Part shown: positions 46,106-50,828 of the stretch, piece after piece
How positions within the stretch are numbered: position 1 is the first letter of the stretch
Layout: every line of letters begins with the position of its first letter
DNA from: Ephemeroptericola cinctiostellae
Lineage (GTDB): Bacteria > Pseudomonadota > Gammaproteobacteria > Burkholderiales > Burkholderiaceae
Reading direction: 5' to 3'
DNA: 64,000 nt
NCBI RefSeq assembly: GCF_003339525.1
Contig: NZ_CP031124.1
Location: forward strand, 1,798,001 to 1,862,000
The notes under the pieces: model-generated
The model's database searches: none
Seen by the model: only the letters and a program-made list of their open reading frames with translations
What the model was told of the DNA's origin: nothing
Program-made: the position numbers and the translations under genes

Positions 46106-46115
46106 GGAATTTTAA

Positions 46116-46211
46116 GGCGAGCCTGAACTTCGGCACTTATGGATAACAGCTGTGGCTGCTTTCTTCCGAACCTGACCCGATTCACTGCCCCACAATGCGA
46201 AGGGACCCGCC
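46116..46211 (-). ncRNA. ffs: 4.5S RNA of the signal recognition particle
   Basis: The 96-nt RNA has the universally conserved domain IV loop (GGTCAGGTTCGGAAGAAAGC then AGCC), which binds Ffh. Its ends pair, GGCGGGUC with GGCUCGCC, closing the long rod. A perfect -10 box TATAAT (46219-46224) lies eight bases upstream and a strong terminator follows. Position just upstream of dnaX is the conserved betaproteobacterial location. Confidence 0.93.
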
Positions 46212-46265: not shown

Positions 46266-47696
46266 TTAGTCATGTGCCAACATGATGTGCCGTGGGCATG
46301 TGTAATCCTCCAAAGCATAATTTGATAAATCTTTACCATACCCTGAACGTTTCAAGCCACCATGCGGCATTTCTGATGTCAACATAAAGTGCGTGTTGAT
46401 CCATGTGCAACCATATTGCAGCTGACTCGATACACGCATGGCTCGACCCACATTTTGCGTCCAAACCGATGAGGCAAGACCGTATTCGGTGTCATTGGCC
46501 ATTTGAATGATTTGCGCTTCATCGTCAAATGGGGTCACAGACACCACAGGGCCAAACACTTCACGCTGAACGATTTCATCGTCTTGACGGGCATGAGCAA
46601 TCACCGTTGGGAGATAGAAGAATCCATCACCTGCCGGCGCACTGCCACCCGCAGTGATTTGAATATGCGGAACGTTGGCGGCACGCTCAACAAAACTGGC
46701 AACGCGTTCACGTTGACGTTGCGAAATCAATGCGCCCATTTCTGTGGTTGGGTCATTCGGTGCACCAACTTTGATGCTGGATACGGCGGCACTCAAGTCC
46801 GCGACAAAATGATCGTACGCTTTTTTCTGTACGTAAATGCGACATGCTGCCGTGCAATCCTGCCCTGCATTGTAGAAGCCAAATACTTTAATGCCATCGA
46901 TTGCCGCTTGAATGTTCGCATCATCAAAGACAATCACGGGGGCTTTACCGCCAAGCTCCAAATGCGTGCGTTTAACCGTACCTCGTGCCGCATCGAGCAT
47001 TTTTTGCCCTGTACCAATATCGCCAGTGAGTGAAATCATGCGCACTTGTGGATGATTGACAAGGCCACTGCCGACCGACTCACCCCGTCCTGTGATGACA
47101 TTAACCACACCAGCTGGTAAAACCTCTGCTAAAAATTGACCCAAGGCCAATGCTGTTAACGGTGTGAGCTCAGACGGTTTGAGCACCACAGTGTTGCCTG
47201 TGGCAATGGCTGGTGCAACTTTCCACGCCATCATCATGAGTGGGTAATTCCACGGTGCAATAGAGGCGACCACGCCCACAGGGTCGCGACGGATGAAACT
47301 GGTGAAACCGTTCAAATACTCGCCACCCACGGGTGCGCTTTGATTGCGGATCGCACCTGCAAAATAGCGGAACACATCAGCAACGGCAGGCAACTCGTCA
47401 TTGAGCACCGCGTGGTGCGGCTTGCCACAATTGTCTGACTCCAATTGCGCCAACATGGCGGCGTTGCTGTCAACCCAATCGGCGATTTTAAGCAAAGCAT
47501 GACTGCGGGTTTGTGGTGTGGTGGCTCGCCAGCTGTTGAATGCCTCATGCGCACCTTGCACCGCCGCATTCATTTGCTCAATCGAAGCTTCTGGCACTTC
47601 GCATATTTTTTTCCCTGTGGCGGGGTTGATGATGTCTTCGACTTGACCTTGACCTTTGACCAACTGGCCATTGATCAGCAATTGATTTGGGTACAT
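46266..47696 (-). CDS. aldehyde dehydrogenase, gamma-aminobutyraldehyde dehydrogenase-like
   Basis: The 476-residue NAD-dependent enzyme resembles PatD/YdcW, which oxidises 4-aminobutanal to GABA. Catalytic residues visible are Asn150 in APWNYP, Lys173 in LKPSE, Glu247 in LELGGKAP and the nucleophile Cys281 in [11 protein letters not shown]. The length equals that of PatD. It is the third gene of an operon after a 2-oxoglutarate-dependent hydroxylase and a threonine-aldolase-like enzyme (44-bp gap). In that setting it probably oxidises the aldehyde released by retro-aldol cleavage of a hydroxylated basic amino acid. Confidence 0.85.
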
Positions 47697-47740
47697 GAGT
47701 GCTCCTGTTTAAATTTTTTCTAAAGTTTTTTAAAACCTGC

Positions 47741-48853
47741 TTAAATATTTGAGTGAATGACTGACAATGCGGCTTCTACACCAGCCGCAAAATGATCGAC
47801 ATCAACTTCAGTTGTATCCCATGCGGTCATCCAGCGCACCTGAGAACGGCTCATGTCCCAATCCCAAAACATGCACCAGTCACTTAATGGCGTGATGAGT
47901 TGAGCTGGAATGATCGGGAAACTGCTGTTGACTTGCGGTACAGCGTCAAATGAAATGCCTTTGAGCGAGACCGTCGCGTCGTACAAACGACGACTCATGG
48001 CATTGGCTTGTTGTGCCAATTGAATCCACAGGTTATCCGTCAGTAAAGCATTGAATTGAGCGGCCACAAACCGCATTTTGGATGGCAGTTGGTTGACCTG
48101 TTTGCGCACATACTTGGCACGCCGAGCATAAATGGGGTTCAAATAAATCACGGCCTCACCAAACATCAGCCCCGCTTTTGTACCTCCAAAACTGAGCACA
48201 TCAACGCCCACATCGCTCGTGAAAGCACGCAATGCATTGATTGTGCCGCCGAGTGCGGCGGTCGCATTGGCAATCCGCGCCCCATCGAGGTGTACGCGCA
48301 TGTCCATTGCATGTGCCGTGTCGCATAAGGCTGCAATTTCTTCGACAGAGTACAGTGCACCCAATTCAGTTGGTTGGGTGATGGACAAAACACCAGGCTG
48401 TGCACTGTGCTGTACGCCCACCATTGATTTCAATGCTTCAAGTTGTTCAGGCTTGATTTTGCCATCGCAGGTCGGCAACATGAGTAACTTGGCACCCAAA
48501 GCTCGCTCAGGTGCACCCGTTTCATCCAGCGCAATGTGCGCCTTATCGCTGCACACCACACATTCACCCGCCTGCAATAAAGTGGCCAAAGCCATCACAT
48601 TGGCACCCGAGCCACCAAACACCAGCAAGGACTCTGTGTGTTCACCAAATAAACTTTTAAAATGGGCTTGCGTCTGCGCCGTCCATGGGTCACTGCCGTA
48701 AGCCAAGGCATGGTTTTGATTGGCTTGTGCCAAAGCCGCCATGACTGCGGGGTGTGCACCTGCGGAGTTGTCGCTGGCAAACGTGCGCTCGGGCGCAGGC
48801 ATGGCTTGAAGTGTTTCTACGAGGGCTTTTATAGAATGGGTAGAATGAGTCAT
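47741..48853 (-). CDS. threonine-aldolase family enzyme (beta-hydroxy amino acid retro-aldolase)
   Basis: The 370-residue PLP enzyme has the beta-eliminating lyase/threonine aldolase fold. ASDNSAGAHPAVMAAL binds substrate, VHLDGARIANA gives the PLP Asp (about residue 190) and SFGGTKAGLM the Schiff-base Lys (about 226). The family cleaves beta-hydroxy-alpha-amino acids to glycine and an aldehyde. Five bases separate it from the upstream hydroxylase, so translational coupling is likely. The context suggests its substrate is the 3-hydroxylated product of that enzyme rather than threonine itself, but plain threonine/allo-threonine cleavage remains possible. Confidence 0.82.
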   Translation of the reverse strand: MTHSTHSIKALVETLQAMPAPERTFASDNSAGAHPAVMAALAQANQNHALAYGSDPWTAQTQAHFKSLFGEHTESLLVFGGSGANVMALATLLQAGECVVCSDKAHIALDETGAPERALGAKLLMLPTCDGKIKPEQLEALKSMVGVQHSAQPGVLSITQPTELGALYSVEEIAALCDTAHAMDMRVHLDGARIANATAALGGTINALRAFTSDVGVDVLSFGGTKAGLMFGEAVIYLNPIYARRAKYVRKQVNQLPSKMRFVAAQFNALLTDNLWIQLAQQANAMSRRLYDATVSLKGISFDAVPQVNSSFPIIPAQLITPLSDWCMFWDWDMSRSQVRWMTAWDTTEVDVDHFAAGVEAALSVIHSNI

Positions 48854-48858
48854 TCAAA

Positions 48859-49809
48859 TTAAATTCCAAAAGTTGTCGAAATCACACGCCCCTGACGCTC
48901 ATCGGCACTGTCGATCAAACTATCAACGACAAATGTACGCTGCAACCAACGGTCTGTGCCATCAAATCTGGGTGAATATTGGCTGCGACCATGAACAGCC
49001 ACGGCATTATCAACCACCAACAAATCACCCTTTTCCAAGCACACCCCTGTGTGGCATGATTCAACTGCACGGGATAAAGCTTCCAATGCTGCTTGCGCCT
49101 CCTCATCCTCCCCCACCATCAAATCGGCATCAAACACCATGGTTGGGCACTCTGGCTCGCCACTCAACACGGGCACCAATTCTCCCAGAACATTGGTACG
49201 ACCATGCAAATAACTTTCGTCAATGGCGGTACGGAAACGCGGCTGAAATAAAACACGCACCACATCATCACTCAACAACGGCAGTACTTCACGAATCGAG
49301 GCCAAAGTAGTTGAAGCGGCTGGGTCACCTTTTAAGCATAATAACAGCAAATAACTGGGGCGATGCGGGTGAAATGCGGCTTCGGTATGAAACATCAAAG
49401 GCACTTTAGACGAGGTCGATACTTGACGATCGCTGGCTGTTTTGGTGGGCACAAGGTTTTGAATCAAGCGCCCCCCCAACTCTGGCTCATAACCCACAGG
49501 CTCGCCCAAGCATTTGGCAACCGTCAGCAAAGTCAGTTCACTGGTGCAATCTTTCGTTGTGGGGGTCGTCGGTGTTATTGGCGTCGCAGGCAACTCCCCA
49601 ACAGTTAAACCCTTAATCAACAACCCACCACTTTTATGCGGATGGGCATGAAACTCACGCAATGCCTCACGCACAGCAGCGGGCAAACAATCGGCGTGTT
49701 TGTCCGCCTGATTGATGAATGATTCATCTTGAAAATCGCATGCGGGTGCAAAAAAGGCCAAAGGGATGATGTTGTGCACCACTTTAGGTTGAATGTGTTG
49801 TGTGATCAT
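48859..49809 (-). CDS. Fe(II)/2-oxoglutarate amino-acid hydroxylase (clavaminate-synthase-like)
   Basis: The 316-residue oxygenase has the iron-binding HTE at residues 141-143 (MFHTEAAFHPHRPSYLLLLCLKG), the distal His273 in AVHGRS and the 2-oxoglutarate-binding Arg region FDGTDRWLQRTFVV (287-291). These motifs, GGLLIKGL and VPVLSG place it with VioC/OrfP arginine 3-hydroxylases, AsnO and KDO1-type lysine 3-hydroxylases. It should hydroxylate C3 of a free basic or amide amino acid, with lysine and arginine the leading candidates. It is the first gene of the operon, with GGAG before the ATG, and its promoter overlaps a palindrome beside the divergent RpiR gene. Confidence 0.83.
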   Translation of the reverse strand: MITQHIQPKVVHNIIPLAFFAPACDFQDESFINQADKHADCLPAAVREALREFHAHPHKSGGLLIKGLTVGELPATPITPTTPTTKDCTSELTLLTVAKCLGEPVGYEPELGGRLIQNLVPTKTASDRQVSTSSKVPLMFHTEAAFHPHRPSYLLLLCLKGDPAASTTLASIREVLPLLSDDVVRVLFQPRFRTAIDESYLHGRTNVLGELVPVLSGEPECPTMVFDADLMVGEDEEAQAALEALSRAVESCHTGVCLEKGDLLVVDNAVAVHGRSQYSPRFDGTDRWLQRTFVVDSLIDSADERQGRVISTTFGI

Positions 49810-49841: not shown

Positions 49842-49871
49842 ATCATACACGAAATGGAATTTAAATTCCAT
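49842..49871. promoter_or_regulatory. operator palindrome and promoter of the hydroxylase operon
   Basis: ATGGAATTTAAATTCCAT (49854-49871) is a perfect 18-bp palindrome. On the minus strand an extended -10, TG-TATGAT (TATGAT at 49842-49847), lies 17 bp from TGGAAT (49865-49870), so the palindrome fills the spacer and -35. Another ATTCCAT half-site is at 49895-49901. RpiR-family proteins bind this kind of site, and the divergent RpiR gene is 70 bp away. Confidence 0.7.
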
Positions 49872-49940: not shown

Positions 49941-50828
49941 ATGGATTCACACTTTAAAAAGAGCCCTTTAATTATGCACACACCACCACCTCCTCTCGCT
50001 GAACTCATTGGCCAACATGCACATGCCCTGACCAAATCCGAACGACGCGTTGCCGAAATTGTGCTGCAACAACCCAAATTTGTTGCTTTTGGCACAGTTT
50101 CTGATTTGGCACAAGCTGCAGAATCGGGTGTCGCCACAGTGGCACGTTTATCTTCCAAGCTTGGTTTCAGTGGTTTCAGTGACATGCAAAATGCAGTGCG
50201 CCATAGCCTTGCCAGTCTGCTTGAGCCCGCAGCCGTGCGCATCAAAGACAATGCAAACAGCACGCTGGAGCACCATTTACAAATGGAAATCAGTAATTTG
50301 CAACACACATTGAATAACATCGATCAAGTCAAATTGGACGCCAGCATCGCCCAGCTCAGTGAATTAAAATCATCGGTTTACGTGATTTCAGGTAACGCCT
50401 CTCGTGGAGTGGCTCAACAATTCATCGAAGATTTATCCGCACTCAGACCCCATGTGTACATGGTTGAAGGCAATCCAGTGCAAGTGGCTCGAACGATGAC
50501 CCAATTAAACCCAAATGATGCGATCGTGGCCATTGATTTGCGCCGTTATGACCGCTGGGTCGTGGAAGCCGTTGAAACTGCATATGGGCGGGGACTCAAT
50601 GTCATCGCCATCATTGACAGCGTATTGTCACCATTGAGCACGCTCACCAGTCAAGTGATGGTGGTTGCAGCAGCGGGCGCTGGGCCTTTTGACAGCCACG
50701 TCGGAACATTGGCTTTATTGAATGTATTGGTTGCAGGTACAGCAGAGAAATTACGACGCAGCGCAAGCAGCCGCCTCAGTCAAGCTGAGGATGCATGGCA
50801 TGCGGCTGATGTGTTGGTGGATCGATGA
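49941..50828 (+). CDS. MurR/RpiR-family transcriptional regulator
   Basis: The 295-residue protein has an N-terminal RpiR helix-turn-helix domain (LTKSERRVAEIVLQQPKFVAFGTVSDLAQAAESGVATVARLSSKLGF, about 30-78) and a SIS domain (about 125-265, VYVISGNASRGVAQQFIEDLS, DAIVAIDLRRYDRWVVEAVETA). SIS domains usually sense phosphosugars, but several RpiR proteins control amino-acid catabolism. It is divergent from the hydroxylase-aldolase-dehydrogenase operon. The start at 49941 is uncertain; ATG 49974 (MHTPPPPL) is an alternative. Confidence 0.88.
   Translation: MDSHFKKSPLIMHTPPPPLAELIGQHAHALTKSERRVAEIVLQQPKFVAFGTVSDLAQAAESGVATVARLSSKLGFSGFSDMQNAVRHSLASLLEPAAVRIKDNANSTLEHHLQMEISNLQHTLNNIDQVKLDASIAQLSELKSSVYVISGNASRGVAQQFIEDLSALRPHVYMVEGNPVQVARTMTQLNPNDAIVAIDLRRYDRWVVEAVETAYGRGLNVIAIIDSVLSPLSTLTSQVMVVAAAGAGPFDSHVGTLALLNVLVAGTAEKLRRSASSRLSQAEDAWHAADVLVDR

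Follow-up and report, generated by a model that had tools for sequence, protein, structure and literature searches.

An operon of oxygenase, aldolase and dehydrogenase genes divergent from rpiR

The window, a stretch of 64,000 nucleotides of Ephemeroptericola cinctiostellae (contig NZ_CP031124.1, positions 1,798,001 to 1,862,000), was found to contain an Fe(II)/2-oxoglutarate oxygenase gene, an aldolase gene and an aldehyde dehydrogenase gene in one operon, best read as an amino acid degradation operon controlled by the product of a divergent rpiR gene. The oxygenase, as judged from its pocket, would use 2-oxoglutarate and O2 to hydroxylate a basic L-amino acid at C3, and with lysine, the likeliest substrate, the product would be (2S,3S)-3-hydroxylysine; the threonine-aldolase-type enzyme would split this product into glycine and 4-aminobutanal, and the PatD-type dehydrogenase, which stands in the operon in this lineage only, would oxidise 4-aminobutanal to gamma-aminobutyrate (GABA). 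Conversion of the GABA into succinate would fall to GabT and GabD, whose genes lie at another place in the genome, and the rpiR product would act as a repressor through a TGGAA-N6-TTCCA site upstream of the oxygenase gene. This route under RpiR control, with its inferred substrate and activity, is considered somewhat better than an even bet, and an even chance is given to the wider proposal of an undescribed lysine-to-GABA pathway carried as an RpiR-controlled mobile module, which would have passed between Acidimicrobiia-type Actinomycetota and Burkholderiaceae and, in one lineage, acquired a dehydrogenase of its own. The computations established the gene order, the protein families, the pocket residues and the recurrence of rpiR, oxygenase, aldolase and motif in two phyla.

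The oxygenase gene (48859-49809, minus strand) encodes a clavaminate-synthase-like protein of 316 amino acids with a KDO1-type pocket, a predicted C3-hydroxylase of a basic amino acid (lysine), and its product matched the Pfam family TauD with 53.7 bits (cut-off 27). It is followed after a gap of 5 base pairs (bp) by the aldolase gene (47741-48853, minus strand), whose product of 370 amino acids, a pyridoxal phosphate (PLP)-dependent enzyme of the L-threonine aldolase type and a predicted 3-hydroxylysine retro-aldolase, matched Beta_elim_lyase with 142.9 bits (cut-off 27). After a further gap of 44 bp, the dehydrogenase gene (46266-47696, minus strand) encodes a PatD-type aminobutyraldehyde dehydrogenase of 476 amino acids, a lineage-specific member of the operon predicted to convert 4-aminobutanal into GABA, which matched Aldedh with 533.5 bits (cut-off 23). 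The rpiR gene (49941-50828, plus strand), a recurrent partner of the oxygenase gene, is divergent from it across an intergenic region of 131 bp and encodes a MurR/RpiR-family regulator with the HTH_6 (61.8 bits, cut-off 28.3) and SIS (38 bits, cut-off 25) domains. The three genes, their order, both gaps and the divergent RpiR had been described in an earlier note made from the sequence alone, and the coordinates of the open reading frames (ORFs) bear this description out.

Recurrence of rpiR, oxygenase and aldolase

A single scan of a collection with one genome per species gave 173 relatives of the oxygenase, and the loci of the best 80 of these were compared; many ORFs in loci of high G+C content were antisense to real genes and were disregarded. 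The near relatives comprised 39 loci (L001-L037, L041 and L047) with 46.7-93% identity, and the other 41 loci had 30-43% identity. An rpiR gene was found in 34 and an aldolase gene in 27 of the 39 near-relative loci, and both were absent from the distant loci (0/41 for each). A same-strand aldolase match was found at most 150 bp after the oxygenase match in 14 loci, and other loci contained an acyltransferase, acyl-CoA dehydrogenase-type or glycerol-3-phosphate dehydrogenase gene between the two. A dehydrogenase was found in two near-relative loci, L001 (97% identity, inside the operon) and L013 (31%, on the other strand), and with 24-27% identity in two of the 41 distant loci; its position in the operon is limited to the window and the close relative L001.

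The recurrent unit is rpiR, oxygenase and aldolase together with a putative operator, and the form with the dehydrogenase is a local one only. It was found in Acidimicrobiia-type Actinomycetota and in one Burkholderiaceae genus, and the grouping of the genes is more than chance because rpiR, oxygenase and aldolase are also combined in another phylum. The conserved clustering of three genes that the earlier note had suggested surveying was therefore found for the oxygenase and the aldolase, with rpiR, and not for the dehydrogenase. The oxygenases of 37 of the 39 near relatives (all but L037 and L047) form a clade with that of the window (support 99/94). A search of 299 genomes of the window's family at E <=1e-30 recovered the oxygenase from four of the six genus members listed and, with 36-39% identity, from two others.

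Genes for WhiB, enoyl-CoA hydratase and PfkB were recurrent neighbours of the module in Actinomycetota, and a further two recurrent families of neighbours gave no Pfam match. The WhiB gene also adjoins the aldolase gene at L214, L216 and L224, three loci from genomes in which the oxygenase had no match, and the three neighbours are for this reason taken as synteny, so that a common transporter or further pathway gene beside the module was rejected. Locus L216 (G521:C25) was found to contain an RpiR homologue (50% identity) near the aldolase in spite of having no oxygenase match, which could mark a lost oxygenase.

Two loci contained the clade oxygenase in other surroundings. At L013:7432-8966 it is divergent from a regulator of the AsnC/Lrp type, not RpiR, with a distant aldehyde dehydrogenase gene downstream on the other strand; LysM was the best-matching model for this regulator but remained below its cut-off (80.5 vs 180), and only the AsnC type was retained. 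At L016:4577-8882 its neighbours are genes for a betaine-homocysteine methyltransferase (491.7 vs 338 bits) and an MttB-like protein (269 vs 525, below the cut-off), a hint of methylated amine metabolism.

The oxygenase pocket and its substrate

The L-lysine 3-hydroxylase KDO1 (PDB 6f2a) was found to be the top-scoring solved relative of the oxygenase with 179 bits, and with a 16-sequence profile it reached 223 bits, above every arginine enzyme; VioC, OrfP and CmnC were also among the solved relatives. The identity of the window oxygenase was 38.5% to KDO1 (286 aligned residues), 37.2% to AsnO, 35.2% to CAS1 and 34.2% to OrfP. Its clade of clavaminate-synthase-like enzymes, the one with support 99/94, is uncharacterised, and the members, where named in sources, are mostly labelled L-asparagine oxygenase or taurine dioxygenase. 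KDO1 falls outside this clade, and its identity lies under the 50% given as the edge threshold of a sequence network in PMC6224419, so that the window oxygenase is not grouped with KDO1 by either measure.

The KDO1 positions reported in PMC6224419 were mapped onto the 38 clade sequences (the window and 37 near relatives). The residues Ser168, His178, Glu180, Thr204, Asp234, Ser236, Asp268, His314, Arg328 and Arg332 were found to be identical in all 38, and Asp270 was occupied by Asp in 32 and by Glu in 6; all 11 active-site positions examined are kept in the window protein. These include each reported contact of KDO1 with its lysine substrate (Ser168, Glu180, Asp234, Ser236, Asp268 and Arg332). 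The metal triad His-x-Glu...His and the two Arg residues for the co-substrate and substrate carboxylates, which PMC6224419 gives as a feature of clavaminate-synthase-like enzymes, were present in 38/38 sequences, as was the Asp pair of the DXXD sub-pocket (Asp197 and Asp227 in window numbering), which in these oxygenases accompanies positively charged substrate side chains (PMC6224419). A further Asp two residues on (Asp229) was found in the window as in KDO1. Among 20 other relatives, Asp234 was kept in 12 and Ser168 in 7; AsnO contains Pro in place of Asp234, and both AsnO and OrfP contain Gly in place of Ser168. The alpha-amino position, Glu in KDO1 and AsnO and Gln in VioC and OrfP (PMC6224419), is occupied by Glu110, which was invariant in 16/16 sequences; it is followed by Leu in the window, and the C4-directing Arg of KDO5 is therefore absent. 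The pocket residues favour C3 hydroxylation of a basic amino acid, in line with the earlier expectation of a VioC/KDO1-type oxygenase, and lysine rather than arginine as the substrate would be the weaker step.

Arginine, or another guanidino amino acid, could be hydroxylated at C3 and split into glycine and 3-guanidinopropanal. The Asp pair is shared with the relatives VioC, OrfP and CmnC, a second Asp (Asp229) is present, though KDO1 has one as well, and GntD and GntG of guanitoxin synthesis combine a beta-hydroxylase of the same family with a PLP retro-aldolase in one guanidino pathway. That pathway is biosynthetic, the window proteins fell under the NCBIfam cut-offs for GntD (220.2 vs 345 bits) and GntG (56.4 vs 230 bits), KDO1 outscores the arginine enzymes, Ser and Glu stand where OrfP has Gly and Gln, and the dehydrogenase is of the aminobutanal type; a guanidino substrate is accordingly held to be unlikely.

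Elsewhere in the window genome (G000:C1:163674-164216; L239:2627-3124), a short ORF of 165 amino acids gave a match to the end portion of TauD (48.7 bits) and a weak one to CsiD, and it resembles a fragment of a further oxygenase.

Aldolase family and transfer of the module

The solved relatives of the aldolase were the L-threonine aldolases 7w0i, 5vye and 1v72 with 201-236 bits. The enzyme belongs to the same family, with the Beta_elim_lyase fold and a GGTK motif in the alignment with 7w0i, 5vye and 7yvr (GATK in 7yvr), the lysine of which is presumably the PLP-binding residue. If the lysine reading is right, it differs from them in acting on a six-carbon hydroxylated amino acid and in its association with an oxygenase and an operator.

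In a tree of 43 aldolases, those of the window and three congeners formed one group (100/99) among Acidimicrobiia-type sequences, apart from the aldolases of three other Burkholderiaceae genomes; the joins next to the window group were weak (80/84). The oxygenase-linked aldolases did not form one clade (4 changes), and 4 of the 11 unlinked aldolases included fell among them. The aldolase seems to have travelled together with the oxygenase, and the module has apparently moved between Acidimicrobiia-type Actinomycetota and Burkholderiaceae, to judge from this tree. The linkage of a threonine-aldolase-like enzyme to the oxygenase, proposed earlier, is upheld by the family, by the neighbourhoods and by this apparent joint travel.

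The putative RpiR operator

The intergenic region was found to contain the 18-bp perfect palindrome ATGGAATTTAAATTCCAT, the core of which, TGGAATTTAAATTCCA at 49855-49870 (no strand), is the putative RpiR operator. In 29 divergent rpiR-oxygenase regions the motif TGGAA-N6-TTCCA was exact in 18, contained one mismatch in 9 and was further off in two. The motif was also scanned in 28 whole genomes, which overlap with the genomes of these regions and of which 26 contain the oxygenase, and in 19 of these 26 an exact copy lay 12-125 bp away from the oxygenase match (4/4 in the genus and 15/22 in Actinomycetota). With 60 motif matches in about 97 megabases of the 26 genomes, 0.002 matches are expected by chance at the oxygenase-adjacent places, a value that holds for a fixed motif; the reversed control pattern gave 20 matches genome-wide against the 60. 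Matches not beside the oxygenase amounted to 41 of the 60, and the oxygenase-free members of the genus contained one match (G041) and none (G066). A wider regulon in the window genome (G000) was rejected, as both other motif matches fall inside ORFs. The RpiR product probably represses the operon.

The dehydrogenase and the fate of the aldehyde

The dehydrogenase scored above the cut-off of the NCBIfam subfamily model NF010000, aminobutyraldehyde dehydrogenase (778.6 vs 615), and under that of the tight equivalog TIGR03374 (753.2 vs 909.3). Its three best solved relatives were 4dal (676.8 bits), 1wnb (671.9) and 6c43 (662.1), deposited as a putative aldehyde dehydrogenase, a putative betaine aldehyde dehydrogenase and a gamma-aminobutyraldehyde dehydrogenase, respectively, and 1wnb is taken to be YdcW/PatD of Escherichia coli; the PatD-like identity given in the earlier note is thereby supported. 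PatD in E. coli serves putrescine degradation, and in the system proposed here the aldehyde would come from lysine, not putrescine.

Within the genus (six genomes), a PatD-type gene with 74-100% identity was found in all four genomes with oxygenase and aldolase and in neither of the two without them (best match there 39-40%). It stands inside the operon in the window genome and in G056, and in G076 it is divergent from, and beside, PuuC-like and FAD oxidoreductase genes, a neighbourhood that fits 4-aminobutanal. PuuC-like dehydrogenases were found in 6/6 genomes with 653-685 bits, below the model cut-off of 850 in each, so that the PatD-type gene and not the PuuC-like gene tracks the module, in a small sample of six related genomes. 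GabT was above the TIGR00700 cut-off in 6/6 genomes, and in the window genome its gene adjoins that of GabD, also above the cut-off (837 vs 828).

In G021 (C14:31329-32758; L091; probably Formosimonas limnophila), the PatD-type residues 1-310 and 317-476 lie in different frames, either by a real frameshift or by a sequence error, near an hslU-like gene (named by eye). The locus L233 of the window genome (G000:C1:815000-830000) contains glutamine-synthetase-like, class III aminotransferase, PuuC-like dehydrogenase, FAD oxidoreductase, Peptidase_C26 and solute-binding protein genes, resembling a putrescine uptake and degradation locus.

Weighing of the lysine reading

A number of results weigh against the route from lysine to GABA. 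The oxygenase is hardly closer to KDO1 than to the asparagine oxygenase AsnO, and Foldseek placed AsnO (2og7, 1.6e-22) just before KDO1 (2.7e-22). In the oxygenase tree KDO1 occupied a long branch outside the 38-row clade (CAS1 was a long branch too), and Asp234, Ser236 and Asp268 are common also to the arginine enzyme OrfP. The predicted structure was loose at the active site, with a mean pLDDT (predicted local distance difference test) of 67.7, and is therefore too weak for pocket geometry. The aldolase was absent from 12 of the 39 near-relative loci, in two of which (L007 and L037) the contig stops at the oxygenase, and three proteobacterial oxygenases (L013, L016 and L018, from unclassified metagenome-assembled genomes) had neither rpiR nor aldolase nearby. 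Aldolase homologues (E <=1e-90) were found in 172 of 221 Acidimicrobiia-family genomes against 27 with the oxygenase, and the aldolase therefore has other roles in that family. The operator motif was derived from some of the very regions in which it was counted, and in the window genome the reversed control outnumbered it by 7 matches to 3. Sugar phosphates are the usual signals of RpiR/SIS regulators, which is odd for an amino acid route.

Further points concern the third enzyme. A close PatD-like dehydrogenase was found in only one of the 39 near-relative loci. In the 221 genomes, with at most six candidates scored per genome, NF010000 was over its cut-off in 15/27 oxygenase-positive and 120/194 negative genomes (p = 0.53); G529, counted as negative, has an incomplete oxygenase where a contig ends (L228), and its reassignment gave 16/28 and 119/193 (p = 0.68). 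PatD as a conserved third partner was rejected outside the genus, and co-conservation of all three genes, which the earlier note had named as a test of linkage, is not supported. Inside the genus, one of the four PatD-type genes (that of G021) is split over two frames, and the genome G076 is only 85% complete.

The rarity of a close dehydrogenase in the near-relative loci and the missing PatD association in the 221 genomes would also suit the view that the oxygenase and aldolase degrade another amino acid (e.g. asparagine, ornithine or a non-protein one) and that the dehydrogenase is a chance neighbour serving putrescine degradation, as would the place of its G076 orthologue beside PuuC-like and FAD oxidoreductase genes and the near-equal similarity of AsnO. 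The view is nevertheless thought improbable, since within the genus the presence of the PatD-type gene goes with that of the oxygenase and not with that of the PuuC-like gene, and since AsnO contains Pro where KDO1 and the clade contain Asp234.

Comparison with known systems

The trimethyllysine hydroxylase (TMLH) of carnitine biosynthesis carries a GBBH-like_N domain (PF06155), which is a domain of gamma-butyrobetaine hydroxylase. This domain was not found in the window oxygenase, in which only TauD was matched at E <=0.001, and PF06155 had no match in the six genomes of the genus (0/6), with matches in 10/10 other oxygenase-positive genomes searched. Because of these two results the window system is not classed as a member of the carnitine pathway, although it would work like it.

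According to PMC7764450, PMC8085414 and PMC11016064, carnitine biosynthesis in eukaryotes (animals and fungi) uses TMLH, hydroxytrimethyllysine aldolase (HTMLA) and trimethylaminobutyraldehyde dehydrogenase (TMABADH) in this order to convert trimethyllysine into gamma-butyrobetaine. As in the proposed route, a 2-oxoglutarate oxygenase acts at C3 of a lysine-type amino acid, a PLP aldolase of the threonine aldolase or serine hydroxymethyltransferase kind frees glycine, and an aldehyde dehydrogenase gives a four-carbon amino acid. The carnitine intermediate is (2S,3S) in the same sources, of like configuration to the KDO1 product, (3S)-3-hydroxy-L-lysine (PMC6224419), and the low-specificity threonine aldolase of E. 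coli is described there as highly active on this trimethylated intermediate. The carnitine substrate is, unlike that proposed here, trimethylated, and TMLH is described with an aromatic cage; the pathway is stated in PMC8085414 as unobserved in prokaryotes.

The same three steps acting on N6-trimethyllysine scavenged from protein, as a bacterial first part of carnitine synthesis yielding glycine and gamma-butyrobetaine, would agree with this step order, with the activity of the E. coli aldolase and the action proposed for PatD in these texts, and with the methyltransferase and MttB-like neighbours at L016. Such neighbours were met at L016 only, however, the pair of Asp residues that binds a free amine in KDO1 is retained in the pocket in place of a cage, and the GBBH-like_N domain is lacking from the oxygenase and from the genus, which leaves this substrate quite improbable.

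KDO1 is among the closest known systems, alike in the ten reported substrate, co-substrate and metal positions and unlike in overall identity and clade; PMC6224419 does not contain the words 'operon' or 'catabolism', and therefore no natural pathway is given for KDO1 there. The earlier note, which knew of no described catabolic pathway made up of the three steps, had overlooked carnitine biosynthesis and the GntG retro-aldol step of guanitoxin synthesis, and of its overall interpretation the families, the pocket and the linkage are supported and the three-gene conservation is not. Among the papers listed from open-licence PubMed Central literature (titles and starts of abstracts), none was found on a bacterial conversion of lysine through 3-hydroxylysine to 4-aminobutanal, which is no proof of absence.

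Other features

A small bacterial signal recognition particle RNA (RF00169, 72.1 bits) was found at 46113-46211 on the minus strand, between the dehydrogenase gene and the next ORF, and a terminator-like stem of 16 pairs with a T run follows it at 46105-46070 on the same strand.

Significance

If the proposed route is true, it would add a brief aerobic pathway from lysine straight to glycine and GABA, and a natural role would be given to a clade of oxygenases that bear mostly asparagine oxygenase or taurine dioxygenase labels. The hydroxylase-aldolase-dehydrogenase logic of carnitine synthesis would then exist also in bacteria, with another oxygenase subfamily, and the module would provide a matched hydroxylase-aldolase pair for the synthesis or cleavage of beta-hydroxy amino acids.

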